DNA of 64,000 bases from Anaeramoeba flamelloides (Eukaryota; Metamonada; Anaeramoebidae). The DNA is taken from the NCBI GenBank assembly GCA_027625915.1, contig JANTQA010000042.1, forward strand, positions 818,001 to 882,000, in the 5' to 3' direction. Both the position numbers and the translations under genes were made by a program. Shown here piece by piece: positions 3,001 through 50,332 of the stretch (position 1 is the first letter of the stretch; the number at the start of each line of letters is the position of its first letter). The notes beneath the pieces were generated by a model. That model was not told the origin of the DNA and did no database searches. It saw only the letters and a program-made list of their open reading frames with translations.

Positions 3001-6000
3001 AAATCATAGATTTCACGATTATCAATTAATGAAAATAATTTTCAAATGACTTAGTTTTAAATTAATTCATAAAGCTTTATTTCTTTTCTTTTTCCTTTTC
3101 TATTGTATTGATAACTTGAATGAAGAAATAATAAAATTTATGAAATAAAGAAATATTTCATTTATTCATAAAACTGGAGATGAAGAAATTCCTTAATTGA
3201 TCGGCATATACCAATTAATAATACATTCACAAAATTCTCCTAAAAATGATTTATCAAGAAATCGAGGAATCTTGGAGTTTAGTGCCAGATTCTCTAATTC
3301 GGATTTAAAAAAACAAAATTAGATACAAGAATAACTGTTCTAAATTTAATTTTTGAATTAGAAAATCTTAAAACTGATTATAAAAATATAGAATTTTATC
3401 CTAACTTAATTCATCGTACCAACAAAATAAACAAAGAAGCTTGTAATAAATTCATTGATGAAATAAATTTTGAGTTTACTAAAAACAAAAATTTTTGGAA
3501 AAAAATAAATTTAATAAGGTCTAAAAAGATGAAAATGATTTTAGATAATAAAAATATGATTGAATAATATTTTGGTAATATTCAAAAAAATTCAATTGAA
3601 CCAAGTAAAGAAATTTTAAATTATATAAAAAAATTAAGAATAAAAAAATTAAAAGAGTTTAAAATTGATATATTTTTTCCAATTGAAAATATCAAAAACA
3701 CTATTAAAAATTTAAAAAATAAATCTGTAAAAGGTTTTCAAAAAATTGAAAATTTGAAATATATGAATGATGATGAAAATAATATTGATTTAAACCCAAT
3801 TGAAAATAAGAATTATAAAAATTATCTTATTACAATTCAGAAAATATTTAATAACTGGTTGATTAACCCAGATAAGAATAATATTGAATATATTAAAAAA
3901 AGGTCAATTTTATTTATCCACGAAAAAGGAAACGAAGGGGCAGCTTTGAATTATCGACCAATTTCTATTAACCAAAGTTTACCAAGATTATTTCAAAAAA
4001 ATGTTATAGAAACTAATCGAAATCTGATGGGGATTTATTCATAAATCTGAGTATGGGTTTAGAAAAAAATATGATACTCGTATTGCAGTATTAAAATTCT
4101 TAAATACTTTTAATACGATAAAATCAAATAATGAAAATGAAAATAATAAAACTTATATTATAATGATTGATATAGCTAAATGTTTTGATTCAATTAGTTT
4201 TAAAATAATTAGAAAAAACAATAAAAAAATTTATTTTAAATAAAATTATTAAATTTTTTTTTATTAAAAATATTATCAAGGAGAAGGTCTTGGTATATTC
4301 CAAGGAGACCCATTATCGCCTATTTTATTTACTCTAATTTCACACTTTCTTTTTATTAAAAATCATTACATTAACGAACCATTGTCAAATGTTTGCAGAT
4401 GATTTAATTTTAATTATAAAAGGAAATAGAAATCAATTAAATCAGAAATTAAATTCAATATATGAAATAATTATTCAATTTGGATTAAAACCTAATAAAG
4501 ATAAAACATTTATATCAAAAGATTTAAAAAAAATTAAATATTTGGGTATTTATTTAAATAAAATTTCGCATTTAGTTTATAATTTAAAAAAGGCGAAAGA
4601 AACATATAACAACTGTAAAAAGTTATTCAATAACAACTCGCTTAACAATAGTTTAAAAAATAGATTATTTAAATCTTTTATCATAAGCCAATTGACATAT
4701 GGGTTGGAAATATATAATTATGAAATAAAAACTTTAAATTATTTAAATTCTTGGATTAATTCATGTATTACTGAAATATGTAAAATAAACAGAAATACAC
4801 CAATTCTTATTTACAAAACAGAATTTAAAATAGAAAATATGATAATTTCTATCAATAAAAAGAAATTCAAATTCAAAAAGAAATTAGGAAATTTATCTCT
4901 TCCTAATTTAGAAAAATTAATAAAGTTTAATCAAAGAATAAATAATAAAATCAATTGGAATTCAAAAGATATTATTGAACTAAAAAAAGAAATACACATA
5001 TACACATATAACGAGTTGTTGAATTCTACAAGTTGGAAGTGTCGTTAGGTTTTCCAAAATTTAAAAGAATTGAGTAAAATCATTAGATTTTTCTCTATTC
5101 TTTTGAATTCTGGAAAACCGCCGTTAGCTTTTTTTTTAATTTGAGAAATAAAAAGAAAATTTCAAAAATTTTCTTTTAATTTCTTAAATTAAAAAAAAGC
5201 TAGGCACTTGACGACACTCCACAAAAATATTTCACAATAATAAAAAATCAAAATTATTTATTTAAAACTCAAAAATATTTAAGTTATCCCTCAAGCTCAA
5301 CAATTCTAAAATTCAGAACATTCACCAACTGCTTAAATAGATATTACTATGTAATTAATAAAAATTCAAATAAATTTTGTTCTTTATGTTTAAAATATAA
5401 ACAGAAGGAAATAATAGAAAATATTGATAATTTTTTTCTGGGTAGGCCCTTCTTATGAAAAAGATAGATTAATTTTTCACAATAAATTAAAAGAAATAAA
5501 TCTTAATGAAATAATTTTAAACTGTGATAGTTTGAAATTATTTTCATTAATTAAAAATCGTGAAATCTATGATTTCACGCTTAAATTTCTAAAAGGAAAA
5601 ATCAAGTCTCAGAACAACTAGAGTGTAATTTACACTTCTTTAATAATAAAAAAAAAAAAAAAGTTTCTCAATTTTTTTATAATTATAAAATAGGATTTTA
5701 CCTTTTTTGATAAAATTTCATGAGTATTGAAAATCACAGAAAGCAATATTGAGTGATTAGAAATTTCAAACTATGTAATATACTCAATAAAGTCCTGGAT
5801 CTTAATAAACAAATTTAATTTTCAATTTGAATCTAAATCCTTAAAAATTCATTAACTTTAAAAAAAAAAAAGTACATACCATTGGTCTAAAACGGAATGT
5901 AAATGGGAACAAAATATATGTTTCATCTTCATTTTAAAATTGTACATTCTATTTTGAATCTGAAAAGAAATATAATTGAATTTAATTATCACATTTTAAT

Positions 6001-13195: not shown

Positions 13196-13505
13196 GTCAA
13201 GCTTCAATATTTTCTTGAGATTTTCTGTTTTATTGGTGAAGTGTTTTAGGTTTTTTTGAGGTTTTCTATTTAATTTGTAAAGTGTTCTAGGTTTTTTTTT
13301 ACTTTTTGAAATAAACAGAAAATTTGAATAACTTTTCGGTTTACTTCCAAAAGTAAAAAAAACCTAACGCCAATCTATTGATTTTCGAAATAAACAGAAA
13401 ACTCAAGAAAAACTAACAGTTTTTTTTTTTAATTTGAGAAATATACGGAAAATTAAATAAATTTTCGGTATATTTCTCCAAATTTAAAAAAAACCTAGCG
13501 ATAAA
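13196..13505. repeat. Modular hairpin array 'D', copy 2
   Basis: Palindromic modules lie in series. A TTTTCTTGAGATTTTCTGTT-type arm is answered by AAACAGAAAACTCAAG. There is a central AGGTTTTTTTTTAC ... AAAAAAAACCTAACG hairpin and an AATTTGAGAAATATACGG ... TTTCTCCAAATTTAAAAAAA hairpin. Linkers read CTAACGCC and CTAGCGATA. It shares modules with the copies at 5044, 34985 and 49858. Confidence 0.7.
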
Positions 13506-33279: not shown

Positions 33280-35480
33280 GTCTGTAGAAGTGTTAGATTA
33301 GATGTTTATCAAGGAGATCCTTTATTATCTTTTTTTAGATTTATAAGATATTTTTGAATTGAAAAAATTAAAAACCATTTAAAATATGTTCAACTGTTTG
33401 CATTTGACTTAATTTTAATAATGGTTGAGTCATTATCAGAAATTGACAAAAAATTAATATCAGGAATTTCTAAAATTATTCAAGAATTTGGAATGAACTA
33501 CAAATAATTGTAAAATATTAACATAAAAAAATAAAATATTTAGGAATTTGGTTAGATATAGAAAAAAATTTTTAGAAAACTTGAAAAAAGTCCAAGAAAA
33601 TTTTAAAAAAATAAAAGTATTTTTTAACCAAAAAAAAAATAGCCAATGAGGTAAAATATAATTGTTCAAATCAATATGTATTAATCAATTATTTTCTAGA
33701 TCTGTTAATTTTTAATTTTACTCCAAAAAGATTTTGACTCAATTGAAGTCACAATCAATAAAAAAGTTACAATTTTTTTAAAAAATCAATTCGCAGTCTC
33801 CAAGAATAATTGATAAAATTCAACTAAAACTTGATCAAGTTCGAAACTCAACTGACAAAAGAAGAAAGAAACTCATAATTAAATAATATGTATATAGAGA
33901 GGGGGGGGCCTCGGTTTTTGACCACATTTTAGACAAATTACAATATTCAAAAAGTGCTGAAAATATTAATTATCTGATATAAAACTTGAAAAATGTAATA
34001 TAAAACTAACTTGATTTTTGACAAGCCTTAATTATAAATGATTAGGAATGAAAAAGTTTAAAAAATTTAAAAAATTCAAAGTATAATTATAATATCAATA
34101 AACAGTCATGCTGTTGAATAATACAAGGTGTATATTTATCTACGTTTCTCAGAATTTAATATAATCAAATAAAATCTGAATTTTGACTCAATTCTTTTGA
34201 ATTATCAAAAAGTTAATAGGTATTTTTTTTTTTTTTTGGTTTGAGAGAAAAAAAATAAAATTTCTTAAATTTTGTTTAAAAAAAAAAAGGATAAAAAATG
34301 GATATCTAAATAATTTGAAAAAAAAATATAAGTTGGAAAATAAAAGAATAGTACAAAATTATCAAAAATGAATAATTTAGCTTTAAAATTAAAAATTATC
34401 TAAAATATAAATCAAGTACTACATTTCTCAAATTTAGAACTTTTACTATGGATTTATAGATACTCATTTTTTAAAAAAAAGAAATCTGAATATAACACTT
34501 ATAAAAAAAAAAAAAAAGTTAACTGTAAAAAGTGTGATTATTGTACTCATTATTATGAAAATATAAACCACTTCATTTGGTATTGTGAAAGGTATAAATT
34601 TATCAGAATCAAATGGAAAAAAAAATTGTCGAAAATTCTAGATAAGAAACTATACGAAAAAGTTATTCTTAGAAAAAATACACAGAAAATCTTCAACATG
34701 ACTAATAAAAATTATGAAATTTATTGCGTTTGTCGGGAATTTTTTATCAAAGCTCTTCTGGTTAGTAAACTTTAGGTAATAAAGAAAATATAGTAAAAAT
34801 TAAGTGAAAACAAAAAATACTTTAAAATAGTAAAAAATATATAAATTCGGACACCCAGAGCCCCACTCTGAGAGTCGTGGAATACCAATTTATTAACCAC
34901 AGTTTGTGGAATTTTTATCCATAATCGATAATCTTTCTATCGGGTTTTTTCTCCTCATGTGTATTCCTGGGGCGTGTCTTCGAGTGCCGTAGAGTGCAGT
35001 CAAGTGCCTAAGTTTTCCGGAATTCAAAAGAATAGAGTAAAATCAAAGATTTAACTCTATTCTTTTCAATTATGGAAAACCTTACGGCGGTTTTCTTGAG
35101 GTTTTCAATTTTATTTATAAAATCTATCAATTTTCCAAATTAATAGAAAACTCAAGAAAACCTAAAGGCGGTTTTTTTTTTTAATTTAAGAAATTAAAAG
35201 AAAATTTTTGAAATTTTCTTTTTATTTCTCAAATCAAAAAAAAGCTAACGGTGATTTTCCAGAATTAGAATTAATTTAGTAAAATCTATGATTTTACACA
35301 ATTCTTTCAAATCCTGGAAAACCTAATGACAGTGGATGGTTTCTATTTGGTCATGAAAATGATGATTTTATTTTATATATATATATATATTAATTATTTT
35401 TCAACTTCTCCTTTTTTTTTTATTTGATGATTTTTCTTTAATTACTTCTTTCTATAAATAAATAAATAAAATAAAATTTC
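33280..35480 (+). mobile_element. Heavily degraded LINE, second family, with 3' UTR
   Basis: Remnants of RT motif B (VYQGDPLLSF, about 33310) and motif C (FAFDLILIMVESL, about 33400; the first Asp is intact, the second is lost) are followed by KIIQEFGMNYK. Near 34530 there is a C-terminal finger, CKKCDYC...HYYENINHFIWYCERYKFIR. Many stops and frame changes are present. The 3' UTR (TTCGGACACCCAGAG ... CACTCTGAGAG, GTGGAATACCAATTTATTAA) ends in an ATAAATAAATAA tract near 35460. The same 3' UTR recurs at 41.3-42.5 kb. A hairpin array lies in this UTR. Confidence 0.75.
34985..35335. repeat. Modular hairpin array 'D', copy 3 (four modules)
   Basis: Four palindromes lie in series. (1) AGTTTTCCGGAATTCAAAAG ... 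TTTTCAATTATGGAAAACC. (2) GGTTTTCTTGAGGTTTTCAA ... AGAAAACTCAAGAAAACC. (3) TTTTTTTTAATTTAAGAAAT ... TTTCTCAAATCAAAAAAAAG. (4) GATTTTCCAGAATTAGAATT ... TCTTTCAAATCCTGGAAAAC. Linkers read TTACGGCGG, TAAAGGCGG and CTAACGGTG. It sits inside a LINE 3' UTR (34860-35480), which resumes after it. Confidence 0.82.
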
Positions 35481-41273: not shown

Positions 41274-41477
41274 TAACCAATCTAAATCAAATATCAAAAT
41301 TTGTAGAAAAAAAACATAATAGATGTCTCATTAGAAATAAACAAAGATTTATGGTTAGAAAACTTTTGGTAATAAAGAAAAAAATATAAAATTAAAGTTA
41401 AAATAATTTTTAACTATAATAAATATATATATATATATATATATTCGGGCACCGAGTAAACCACTCTGAGAGGTAGT

Positions 41478-41566
41478 GTCTAGGTTTTTTTAATTCAAAA
41501 GAATTGAGCAAAAACAAAGATTTTACTATTCTTTTAAATTAAAAAAAAACCTAACGATTGTGGAAT
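41478..41566. repeat. Modular hairpin array 'D', copy 4 (single module)
   Basis: One palindrome, TAGGTTTTTTTAATTCAAAA ... TTTTAAATTAAAAAAAAACC, with CTAACGATTG at the right. The minimal form of the family, inside a LINE 3' UTR. Confidence 0.7.
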
Positions 41567-43205: not shown

Positions 43206-43401
43206 CAGTCAGTTTCACTTTTAAGGCACAAACTTTCAACGAAATTTAAGGCACAAAAAATCTCAAATTAAGGCACAATTTTTTGGAATTTTAATTTTCA
43301 CAAATTATTTTACTAGAATTTGAATTTTGTGCCTTAATTTGAGATTTTTATTGTGCCTTAAATTTCGTAGAAAGTTTGTGTCTTAAAAGTGAAACTGACT
43401 G
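43206..43401. mobile_element. Tc1/mariner-type MITE 'T', copy 4 (well preserved)
   Basis: Perfect-looking ends CAGTCAGTTTCACTTTTAAG and the inverse CTTAAAAGTGAAACTGACTG, flanked by TATA/TATA. The best copy from which to define the family. Confidence 0.88.
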
Positions 43402-43573
43402 TATATAATTAAATATGCAAACTTATTATAAACTAAAATTCAAAATAAATGGCCCACCTTATATTTCAATTTTGAATTGTTTTTGTATTGTTAGAAGTGT
43501 TTCCTCTAATAATTAAAATTTGAAAATAAATCATTTTTTCTCTTTTTATTTTTTCTTTCAGTATTTTGTTAAA

Positions 43574-44854
43574 ATGGAAAATGAAAATCAAAATTATCCA
43601 GAACCTGAAATAAGATTGAACAATGTTCTGTTAAATAAACAGGGTTATTCTCAGCACAATATCACAATGGGACTGAATATTAGTCGAAGAAAGGTTCGAT
43701 ACTGGATTGAAAACTGGAGTAATGAATAAAGATTACATACTAAAAAGAAAAAGAAGGAGAGTTTTTCATTGCAATTATAGTCAGTTTCACTTTTAAGACA
43801 CAAACTTTTTACGAAATTTAAGGCACAAAAAAAATCTCAAATTAAAGCACAAAACTCAAATTCTAGTAAAAATAAATTGTAAAAAAAAAATCCAAATTTT
43901 GTGCCTTAATTTGAGATTTTTTTGTGCCTTAAATTTCGTTGAAAGTTTGTGTCTTAAAAGTGAAACTGACTGAATCGGAATTTGTTAAAAATGCCACACA
44001 AAATAACAGGTCACTGAGTATCAAGCAAATATCAAAAATTGCTCAAGAAAGATTCCCAAATGAACACTGTTCTGAATTAACCATCTACCGAATAAGAAAA
44101 TCTTTGAAATTTGACTATAAACCACCTCGCATCGGTCAATTTTTAACTGAACTGCAAAAAGCAAAAAGAATTTTATTTGCTTTAGACATGGAATCAACGA
44201 AAACAAATTGGAATCCGGTAATATTTTCTGATGAGTCCTGGTTTTATATAAACTCACAAACAAGAAAAATTTGGAGAATGCCAAATGAAAAATCAGGTAA
44301 TTTTTTTTTTTTTTTTTTTTTTAATCCTTTCTAACTTATTTTTAAATAAAAAAGAATCTGTCTTTTAAGAAAAAAAACATTATGATGAAAATGTTTTTAA
44401 TTTGGCGTGCTTTTGGAGTTGATTTTAAATCTCGTTTAATTGTTTTTATTGTGGGTATTAATACTCACATTTATATCAATGAAATTCTCAAAAAGTCGAA
44501 AATCATCAAAAAGCCAAATGAAAAATTTGAGGAATTCTGTTGGATATTTCAACAATATGGCGCAAGACCACATACGTCAAAAATAACAATGAGTTACTTA
44601 AGATACAGATGCAATGTTTTGCATCCATGGCCACCAAATAGTCCCGATTTAAATCCCATTGAAAATCTTTGGGGAATAATGGATAAAAGATTTTCAATTG
44701 ATAGACCAAAAAATAAGAAGAATGTATCAAAAAATTGAAAAAAAATTGGAAAGAAGTAACAGATGAATTAATGGAAAATTTGGTTTCAAATATGAAAAAG
44801 AGATTAGATTTATTTATTCAAAGGGAAGGAGAATCGATAAATGGATTTTATTAA
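43574..44854 (+). pseudogene. Decayed Tc1/mariner-type transposase
   Basis: It begins MENENQNYPEPEIRL with a helix-turn-helix (QGYSQHNITMGLNISRRKVRYWI). A second DNA-binding stretch (NRSLSIKQISKIAQERFPN ... TIYRIRKSL) follows a MITE insertion. The DDE domain shows FSDESWFYIN (first Asp), FQQYGARPHTS (Tyr replaces the expected second Asp) and PPNSPDLNPIENLW (third acidic). The HTH block stops at TAA (43727) before the MITE. A probable 73-bp intron (44297-44369) does not quite restore frame. A further +1 change occurs near 44720, after which KEVTDELMENLVSN runs to a TAA at 44852. The loss of a catalytic residue shows the enzyme is dead. Confidence 0.88.
43778..43972. mobile_element. Tc1/mariner-type MITE 'T', copy 5, inside the transposase gene
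   Basis: TAGTCAGTTTCACTTTTAAG and the inverse GTCTTAAAAGTGAAACTGACTG. The end bases are slightly mutated. It separates the N-terminal HTH from the rest of the transposase. Confidence 0.83.
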
Positions 44855-48647: not shown

Positions 48648-48718
48648 CTTCCGATCGGGGAATTGAACCCCGGCCACCTGAGTGACAGTCAGGCATTCTA
48701 CCTCTATACTAATCGGAA
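48648..48718 (-). tRNA. tRNA-Asp (GTC anticodon)
   Basis: 71 nt on the minus strand. The acceptor stem TTCCGAT/ATCGGAA is followed by a G discriminator. The A box region is TAGTATAGAGGTAG. The anticodon arm is CCTGA-CTGTCAC-TCAGG with anticodon GTC. The T arm is CGGGG-TTCAATT-CCCCG (B box). No intron. A T-run immediately downstream (plus-strand A-run 48636-48644) is a Pol III terminator. Confidence 0.95.
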
Positions 48719-49857: not shown

Positions 49858-50332
49858 AGTGAAATCCAATGCCGAGGTTTTCTTGAGGAATTCTGTTTTA
49901 TCTAAAAATCTATTGATTTTCCAAATAAGCAGTTAACTCAAGAAACCCTAACTGTGGGTTTCGAGGGTTTAAAACAAATAATAAAAATCTTTGATTTTAC
50001 TCAATTCGCGAAAATTCTGAAAAACCTAACGGTGATTTTTTTTTAAATTTTTGAAATAAAAACCGAAAATTTCAAAAATTTTCTTTATTATTTCTCAAAT
50101 TTTTAAAAATCAAAGATAATGTTTCCTCAGTTTTCTATTTCATTAGTTTATTTTATTAGTTTCCATGTATTGTTTTAAATTCTGGAAAGGTACCTTTAGG
50201 TTTTCATGAGTTTCTGTTTATTTGGAAACTTTATTGATTATATAAAAAAACCAAAAATTCAAGAAAATTTTTCCAAACTTTTCTTGAATTCTAAAGAAAC
50301 CCCCAAGTTGTAACCCCATTCTTTTTATATTC
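49858..50332. repeat. Modular hairpin array 'D', copy 5 (longest)
   Basis: Modules in series: GAGGTTTTCTTGAGGAATTC ... GATTTTCCAAATAAGCAG...ACTCAAGAAACC; then GGTTTAAA... ATTTTACTCAATTCGCGAAA ... GAAAAACCTAACGGTG; then AAATTTTTGAAATAAAAACC ... TTTCTCAAATTTTTAAAAAT. After these comes a second, diverged set: GGTTTTCATGAGTTTCTGTT ... CTTGAATTCTAAAGAAACCC. The linkers again contain CCTAACTGTGGG and CCTAACGGTG. Confidence 0.72.

Follow-up and report, generated by a model that had tools for sequence, protein, structure and literature searches.

Arrays of palindromic modules inserted in LINE-like elements of Anaeramoeba flamelloides, probably mobile hairpins that also enter one another

We examined arrays of short palindromic modules in the nuclear genome of Anaeramoeba flamelloides. 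The arrays are insertions, since three LINE-like families have copies with an empty site and copies with a filled one, and since the set of modules differs between copies at one LINE site. Judged from their sequences, the modules are probably non-autonomous mobile hairpins that insert into LINEs and into each other and that ride with the LINEs.

The window, that is, the whole stretch of 64,000 nucleotides analyzed here (C32:818001-882000), comes from an assembly of 254 Mb in 76 contigs with 24% GC. Among its genes are one for a reverse transcriptase (Pfam RVT_1, E 2e-7), one for a DDE_3 transposase, and ordinary eukaryote genes, Sec10 among them. We call the RVT_1 element at 3568-5600 LINE-1 and the element hosting the array at 35 kb LINE-2, a C-terminal piece of which is 44% identical to LINE-1 (E 1e-4). 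The label LINE-3 was assigned by eye from translated pieces and not from a family search.

Modules and arrays

A preliminary description of the window had listed three palindromic modules at five loci (5044-5216, 13196-13505, 34985-35335, 41478-41566, and 49858-50332). We found modules at each of them, and the three modules, here C, A, and B, are real, the simulated controls placing them beyond chance; a fourth, D, was recognized from sampled loci. All four are near-perfect palindromes of ~71-74 bp: C reads GGTTTTCC..GAGTAAAATC / GATTTTACTC..GGAAAACC (71 bp), A reads GGTTTTCTTGAG.. / ..CTCAAGAAAACC (74 bp), B begins CTTTTTTTTAATTTGAGAAAT.. (~72 bp), and D begins GGTTTTTTTTACTTTAGAAATAAACCG.. 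(~72 bp). The two arms of C matched at a median of 0.85 (lowest, 0.65) in 72 full-length copies, as befits a short palindrome of the kind of the yeast GC clusters, compared with a median of 0.32 in 20,000 71-mers drawn at random from this genome, of which two attained 0.8.

Twenty 10-kb pieces of the genome, whose round coordinates on known contigs were set by hand, held 35 modules in 200 kb, 11 of the 20 pieces being positive, and 400 kb of simulated sequence with matched dinucleotide content held none. Scaled from these 20 hand-placed pieces, the copy number would be ~44,000 modules genome-wide (bootstrap 95% range, 23,000 to 69,000). Loci have from 1 to about 12 module matches of mixed types, dispersed through the genome and not in the long single-unit tandem arrays of a satellite. 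The contigs examined measure 1 to 24 Mb and bear LINEs, and the modules are AT-rich; they are thus neither mitochondrial nor GC rich as yeast GC clusters are.

The main array, at 34985-35335, has four modules separated by the linkers TTACGGC, TAAAGGC, and CTAACGGTGA (Table 1). It reaches farther to the left than had been described, to about 34974, via the decamers GTGTCTTCGA GTGCCGTAGA GTGCAGTCAA and GTGCC. Folded as single-stranded DNA, positions 34970-35335 gave -78.1 kcal/mol versus -33.1 (sd 4.1) for 100 dinucleotide shuffles, none of which was as good (z -11). Each module folds by itself in this predicted structure, as had been proposed, and the outer ends, GTGTCG and CGACAC, could pair with each other.

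Table 1. Modules, arrays, and host element in the window
Position	Strand	Feature	Evidence or remark
5040..5221	+	Two-module array, C 5048-5119 and B 5131-5199, with one decamer on the 3' side	Within LINE-1 ORF; related copies have 2-3 bp there
13196..13505		Nested array: A holding A' holding D (13293-13364), then B (to about 13489)	By eye
34140..34280 (about)		Decayed C and B, absent from the preliminary description	Module matches
34397..35475	+	Host LINE-2, 3' part (LINE-like)	ORF end (pieces 34397-34595), 3' UTR, CTTTCT(ATAA)n tail; the array splits the element
34974..35008	-	Three decamers and GTGCC, outer side of main array	E-orientation: GGCAC TTGACTGCAC TCTACGGCAC TCGAAGACAC
35011..35081	-	Innermost C, main array	Module match
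35089..35162	-	A, main array	CTTGAGGTTTTC / GAAAACTCAAG
35175..35245 (about)	-	B, main array	TTTAATTTAAGAAATT / ATTTCTCAAATC
35253..35323	-	Outermost C, main array, LINE-2-specific subtype	Subtype comparison
35324..35335	-	Outer end TAATGACA, then GTGG; LINE-2 host sequence resumes (site alpha)	Empty copies read AGGACGTGGATAG or near
41476..41562	-	Single C at site beta of another LINE-2 3' UTR	GTG/GTG flanks = CAC duplication; other copies read GAGTCGTGGAATACC
49858..50332		Decayed array: A, C, B, further A	Module matches

An alignment of C covering 67 of 71 oriented copies (65 distinct) showed 88.7% pairing within copies versus 87.9% (sd 0.2) with shuffled partners. Cells with double changes numbered 44 (16 of them from one pair) versus 24.9 in shuffles, with 0 of 500 as high; since the relatedness of the copies is uncontrolled in this count, we do not claim selection on the fold. 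Within-copy compensation in C is weak. An Rfam scan of the window gave a single match above threshold, a tRNA gene on the minus strand at 48648-48718, and matched no module. As the tRNA is the sole Rfam match and compensation is weak, nothing points to a useful RNA role for the arrays, and the earlier suggestion of an RNA-level signal, weakened further by the many LINE copies that have no array, is unsupported.

Empty and filled sites in LINE-like elements

LINE-1 copies were found with the query 4600-5250, which includes the array, and 20 were chosen from the list to display both states. Fourteen of these were filled, the window's own copy being extra, and 6 were empty, all at one position within the ORF, with inserts of 90-484 bp in filled copies versus 2-3 bp in empty ones; four of the six empty copies read TTGGAAG^GTCCAAAAATATTTC. 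Genome-wide, exact LINE-1 junctions in one sequence variant each occurred at least 57 times filled and at least 42 times empty. A LINE-1 tree did not separate insertion from loss; with array sequence in the query, empty copies of old date would have escaped the search.

The LINE-2 query was free of array sequence, and 20 copies were fetched from the 40 listed. At site alpha, 14 of these 20 were empty, reading AGGACGTGGATAG or near, and 6 had arrays. A single module at this site, in locus L063, gives the junctions GTG/TCTA<C>TAACGACA/GTGGATAG and thus a GTG (CAC) duplication. The same 3-bp duplication flanks the module that fills site beta (GAGTCGTGGAATACC) at window positions 41476-41562. The duplication is clear at these two sites only, both in LINE-2, and the LINE-1 and LINE-3 sites show none cleanly; where it is seen, the target is CAC and not the AG of yeast GC clusters. 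None of the empty LINE junctions had TA, and a Stowaway-type TA duplication was not found at them; the TA beside the modules is part of the unit and not of the target. LINE-2 terminates in CTCCTTTCT(ATAA)n. On the right flank of the array in L061, the LINE-2 3' UTR has a run of ~17 C (or G) where others have CTCCTCCTG, which is unusual at 24% GC.

For LINE-3, the query was the two flanks joined without a hairpin, and 40 of 40 scored matches to it were continuous. Filled sites were seen as six exact junctions elsewhere, and L028 and L072 are filled. By eye, this site is C-terminal in the ORF, beside a CCHC-like pattern. A second context near the LINE-3 3' end is occupied by arrays that differ among L074, L082, L097, and L099 and, also by eye, seems empty in L090. 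Because the inserts break the LINE-1 and LINE-3 ORFs, filled copies of these families would need intact LINEs for their copying. We rejected the LINE 3' UTR as the origin of the arrays, empty copies being abundant. Several LINE-like 3' ends have a small terminal hairpin (e.g., AGAGAAAAGTAATTTTCTCTCTTCAA or GGGAGGAGTTTAGAATTCCTC) before an A-rich stretch (L005:1000-1060, L011:1241-1300, L013:3950-4010, and L090 at about 1480).

Order, nesting, and decamers

The commonest long order of modules is C-B-A-C. Among loci from a search with a CBAC array, which is not a random sample, we also found B-C-A-C (second block of L096, L099, and L102), C-A-C (L100, L103, and L104), C-B-A-B (L110), and C-B-B-C (L115), as well as tandem restarts. 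Neighbors within an array are usually unlike, with CC twice and AA once in 85 transitions. The earlier statement that module order varies is borne out by these five orders and has to be qualified by the preference for one of them. Despite that preference, we rejected descent from one fixed-order element by deletion, because these orders cannot arise by deletion from one array. Together with the empty and filled sites and the differing sets at one site, they support the idea of a mobile class that gains, loses, and reorders its modules.

In the E-orientation, the array reads TGTCGTTA<C>GCCGTTAG<B>CGCCGTTA<A>GCCGTTA<C>TAGGCACTTGACGGCACTTGACGACAC, and units of the form CGTTA<module>TAGrCACTTgac, with unequal ends, nest via GCCGTTA linkers. 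The inner linker GAAAACCGCCGTTAGSTTTTY, taken as an exact pattern of 21 bases, has 541 occurrences in the genome versus 0 for the reversed pattern, and the linker GGAAAACCTAGACAC occurs 216 times, its reversed control again giving 0. Tandem joins of a second kind, TAGACACTTTTCGTTA and longer forms, are found between complete blocks.

The CACTTGACGG decamers are found at one array end only. Single modules often close with TAGACAC, pairs close with TAGGCACTTGACGACAC, and triples have one decamer more. The decamer count was one less than the module count in 39 of 57 blocks (16.0 after shuffling; 0 of 10,000 as high), namely, in 17/25 blocks of one module, 16/18 of two, 4/4 of three, and 2/10 of four. 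Leaving out the loci picked by the TAGACAC pattern gave 26/42 (shuffled, 11.6; 0/10,000), with 4/10 for single modules; internal closers alone gave 10/16 (shuffled, 5.2; 19/10,000), and one row per distinct combination gave 9/22 (shuffled, 4.8; 250/10,000). This count used a terminal-free version restricted to the 57 blocks with both ends readable (r 0.54), which replaced an earlier automatic count that required terminal flanks missing from many arrays (correlation 0.27, 66 blocks). Of 153 blocks, 96 were left out beforehand (58 without a closer, 19 interrupted by an inner linker, 15 with an unclear left end, and 4 D-initial), and the counter misreads some blocks in both directions (e.g., L102, L104, and L113). 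Because many blocks are mutual copies within LINE-1 and LINE-2, one decamer per module beyond the first is a suggestive rule, not a proved one.

We then compared modules at the same array position in different hosts. For the outermost C of LINE-1 and LINE-2 arrays, 36 of 36 nearest neighbors came from the same LINE family (0 of 1,000 label shuffles), and the distances were 0.103 within and 0.18 between families. The B module gave 0.115 within and 0.131 between, with a same-family nearest neighbor in 0.79 of cases (7 of 1,000 shuffles as high), and the innermost C gave 0.061 within and 0.066 between hosts (six copies; 423/1,000 shuffles). One of the 18 LINE-1 "outermost" copies in these sets is the last C of L040, and one of the 6 "innermost" copies is a tandem C of L084. 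A larger set gave distances of 0.160 between outer C copies (54 copies, 49 loci) and 0.098 between innermost C copies (25 copies, 24 loci); most of the latter had been retrieved by similarity to a single array, which makes for likeness. The innermost C of this set showed no host structure under rough host labels (L042 and L096 lack the LINE-1 mark). That the outermost C is host specific and the innermost is not suggests either inward growth or exchange of inner parts. The gradient from outer to inner argues against one whole array having entered both LINEs and then decayed, as all modules would then differ equally. At L004:1300-2100, a LINE-2 3' UTR is joined via a four-module array to antisense LINE-1, a chimera that suggests recombination through the array. 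On this reading of the locus, it shows that exchange through arrays happens.

Modules were also found inside modules. Among 25 matches to D scored by eye, 19 lay inside A with A on both sides, 3 were one-sided, 2 were outside A (L017 and L105), and 1 was unclear (L060:646). The target in A is GATTTT^ATAAATAAA, and the junction in L034, GATTTT/CGTTA<D>TAGAACACTTC/ATAAATAAA, is a clean insertion into the A consensus. Since A is palindromic, this target is present in both arms: D occupies one arm in L033 and L038 and the opposite arm in L096, L099, and L106, and L100 has a case of each. From these positions, either D entered the same target more than once or A has flipped. In L034, and likewise at 13196-13505 of the window, a second A sits at the same spot inside A (by eye).

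Possible mechanism and related systems

We propose that hairpin units would insert into LINE retrotransposons, where empty sites show insertion and two sites carry the 3-bp CAC duplication, and would likewise enter other units, as shown for D in A at a fixed target. The foot of an array's innermost module would receive each new module (TA -> GCCGTTA<module>TAGGCACTTGAC), and with every nested module would come one more linker and one more decamer. Blocks of two and three modules show this pattern, and it suggests that order of events. Copying of LINEs would then amplify the filled ones, and exchange between arrays would spread inner modules across hosts. More tentatively, we consider it possible that these are nuclear self-nesting hairpins in which each unit carries the next target, so that inward growth follows this rule, the decamers tally insertions, and the outermost module is the oldest.

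The same arrays might instead be passive, derived from a few ancient hairpin insertions in LINE masters, with module number changing only by ectopic recombination, gene conversion, or reverse transcriptase template switching between arrays and the modules now immobile on their own. En bloc copying of the inner part of a donor would explain the shared inner modules, the same order across LINEs, and the decamer count, and the L004 chimera is a case of array-mediated joining. We nevertheless think this account unlikely: D in either arm of A, A in A, D outside A, and single modules at several unrelated sites all suggest repeated separate events, as does the drop in between-host distance from the outer C through B to the inner C. 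Growth by slippage, as in a tandem or satellite-like repeat, would fit the TAGACACTTTTCGTTA linkers between modules in L084 and others and the minisatellite-like look of the decamers; it is made very improbable by the dispersal of modules over 11 of the 20 sampled pieces, the existence of empty sites, and the rarity of like neighbors, and we rejected a satellite identity because the modules are dispersed and mixed and have empty sites.

The position of the sites in the 3' part of LINEs (the LINE-2 3' UTR and the C-terminal ORF of LINE-1 and LINE-3) could mean that the arrays function in LINE RNA as 3' structures bound by the LINE reverse transcriptase, like the stem-loops of some LINE 3' ends. 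Copies without arrays are common in all three LINEs, however, two of the sites lie within ORFs, LINE-1 and LINE-2 carry the array in different orientations, and pairing of C hardly depends on the partner (88.7% versus 87.9%), so that we give this explanation very little credence. Least probable of all are introners, transposon-borne introns spliced from LINE or gene transcripts. A GT...AG reading of the LINE-1 insert is possible (GGAA/GTGTCG...CCTAG), but when tried by eye it leaves GCACTTGACGACACTCCAC and does not restore the frame, and arrays occur in 3' UTRs as well; we rejected an introner identity on these two grounds.

Taken as mobile hairpins, the modules share features with several known elements. 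The Foldback (FB) and Galileo elements of Drosophila consist of one long inverted repeat, with ~10-bp subrepeats in the arms and duplications of 7-9 bp. They may resemble the arrays as foldback DNA with short subrepeats; in the arrays, every module forms a separate hairpin, and such duplication as is clear measures 3 bp. Stowaway-type MITEs are likewise short and palindromic with TA beside their ends, but the empty sites here lack a TA duplication, and counted nesting is not known for MITEs. The bacterial REP/REPIN sequences with RAYT are non-autonomous hairpins that occur in arrays and have a conserved foot, GTAG; our modules, in a eukaryote, are also non-autonomous hairpins in arrays with a short conserved foot (GTTAG/CTAG).

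The closest in kind are the mobile palindromes of mitochondrial DNA. In the available extract of PMC4478555, the GC clusters of yeast mitochondria (GC42 and relatives) are short mobile palindromes of 42 nt with AG target repeats, which merge and shuffle and whose palindrome is under constraint, and a title cited there names single elements and tandem arrays. From that extract, they share with our modules the short mobile palindromes, the very short target repeats, and the merger and shuffling; unlike them, our modules are nuclear, AT-rich, ~71-74 bp long, present in tens of thousands of copies, carried by LINEs, and arranged in a nested grammar with decamers. The Repetitive Hairpin-forming Elements and double-hairpin elements of mitochondria form tandem double or multiple hairpins, also inside genes, as do the modules here; as far as the extract of PMC2800124 describes them, they lack decamers and a fixed nesting point. 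Mobile hairpins, tandem hairpins, and shuffling are thus already known in mitochondria from the extracts of both sources (PMC4478555, PMC2800124), and "previously undescribed", which the preliminary description had offered as a possibility, overstates how new the kind is. No nuclear example with this array grammar was found in a literature search, in which sources were available in part; the nuclear setting, the carriage by LINEs, and the partly counted nesting look new. For yeast mitochondria, the way in which mini-hairpins move has yet to be settled: the extract of PMC4478555 weighs cut-and-paste against RNA-mediated copying and calls for experiments. The similar behavior seen here occurs in a nuclear genome, with tens of thousands of copies and with empty sites built in, both through LINE copies and through hairpins lying within other hairpins, and the decamer tally might allow the order of insertions to be read. 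With such empty sites and tally, the mechanism can be tested by comparing strains.

The most likely motor would be a DNA transposase acting in trans combined with ectopic exchange. Growth may proceed by transposition, gene conversion, or template switching at hairpins, and template switching, which the preliminary description had raised, may be how modules are exchanged. By eye, no module was present at the ends of a candidate partner, the Tc1-like transposase at 43933-44738. The repeats adjoining this gene (DDE_3 half at 44346-44738) belong to another palindromic element at 43308-43871, which has 96-nt inverted repeats that are 95% complementary and GTCAGTTTCACTTTTAAGACACAAAC ends; a third copy of its end lies at 43917-43971. 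At L006:2301-2513, a decayed A-B-C array lies between two outward-facing GTCAGTTTCAC ends of an element of this type, as if between adjacent copies.
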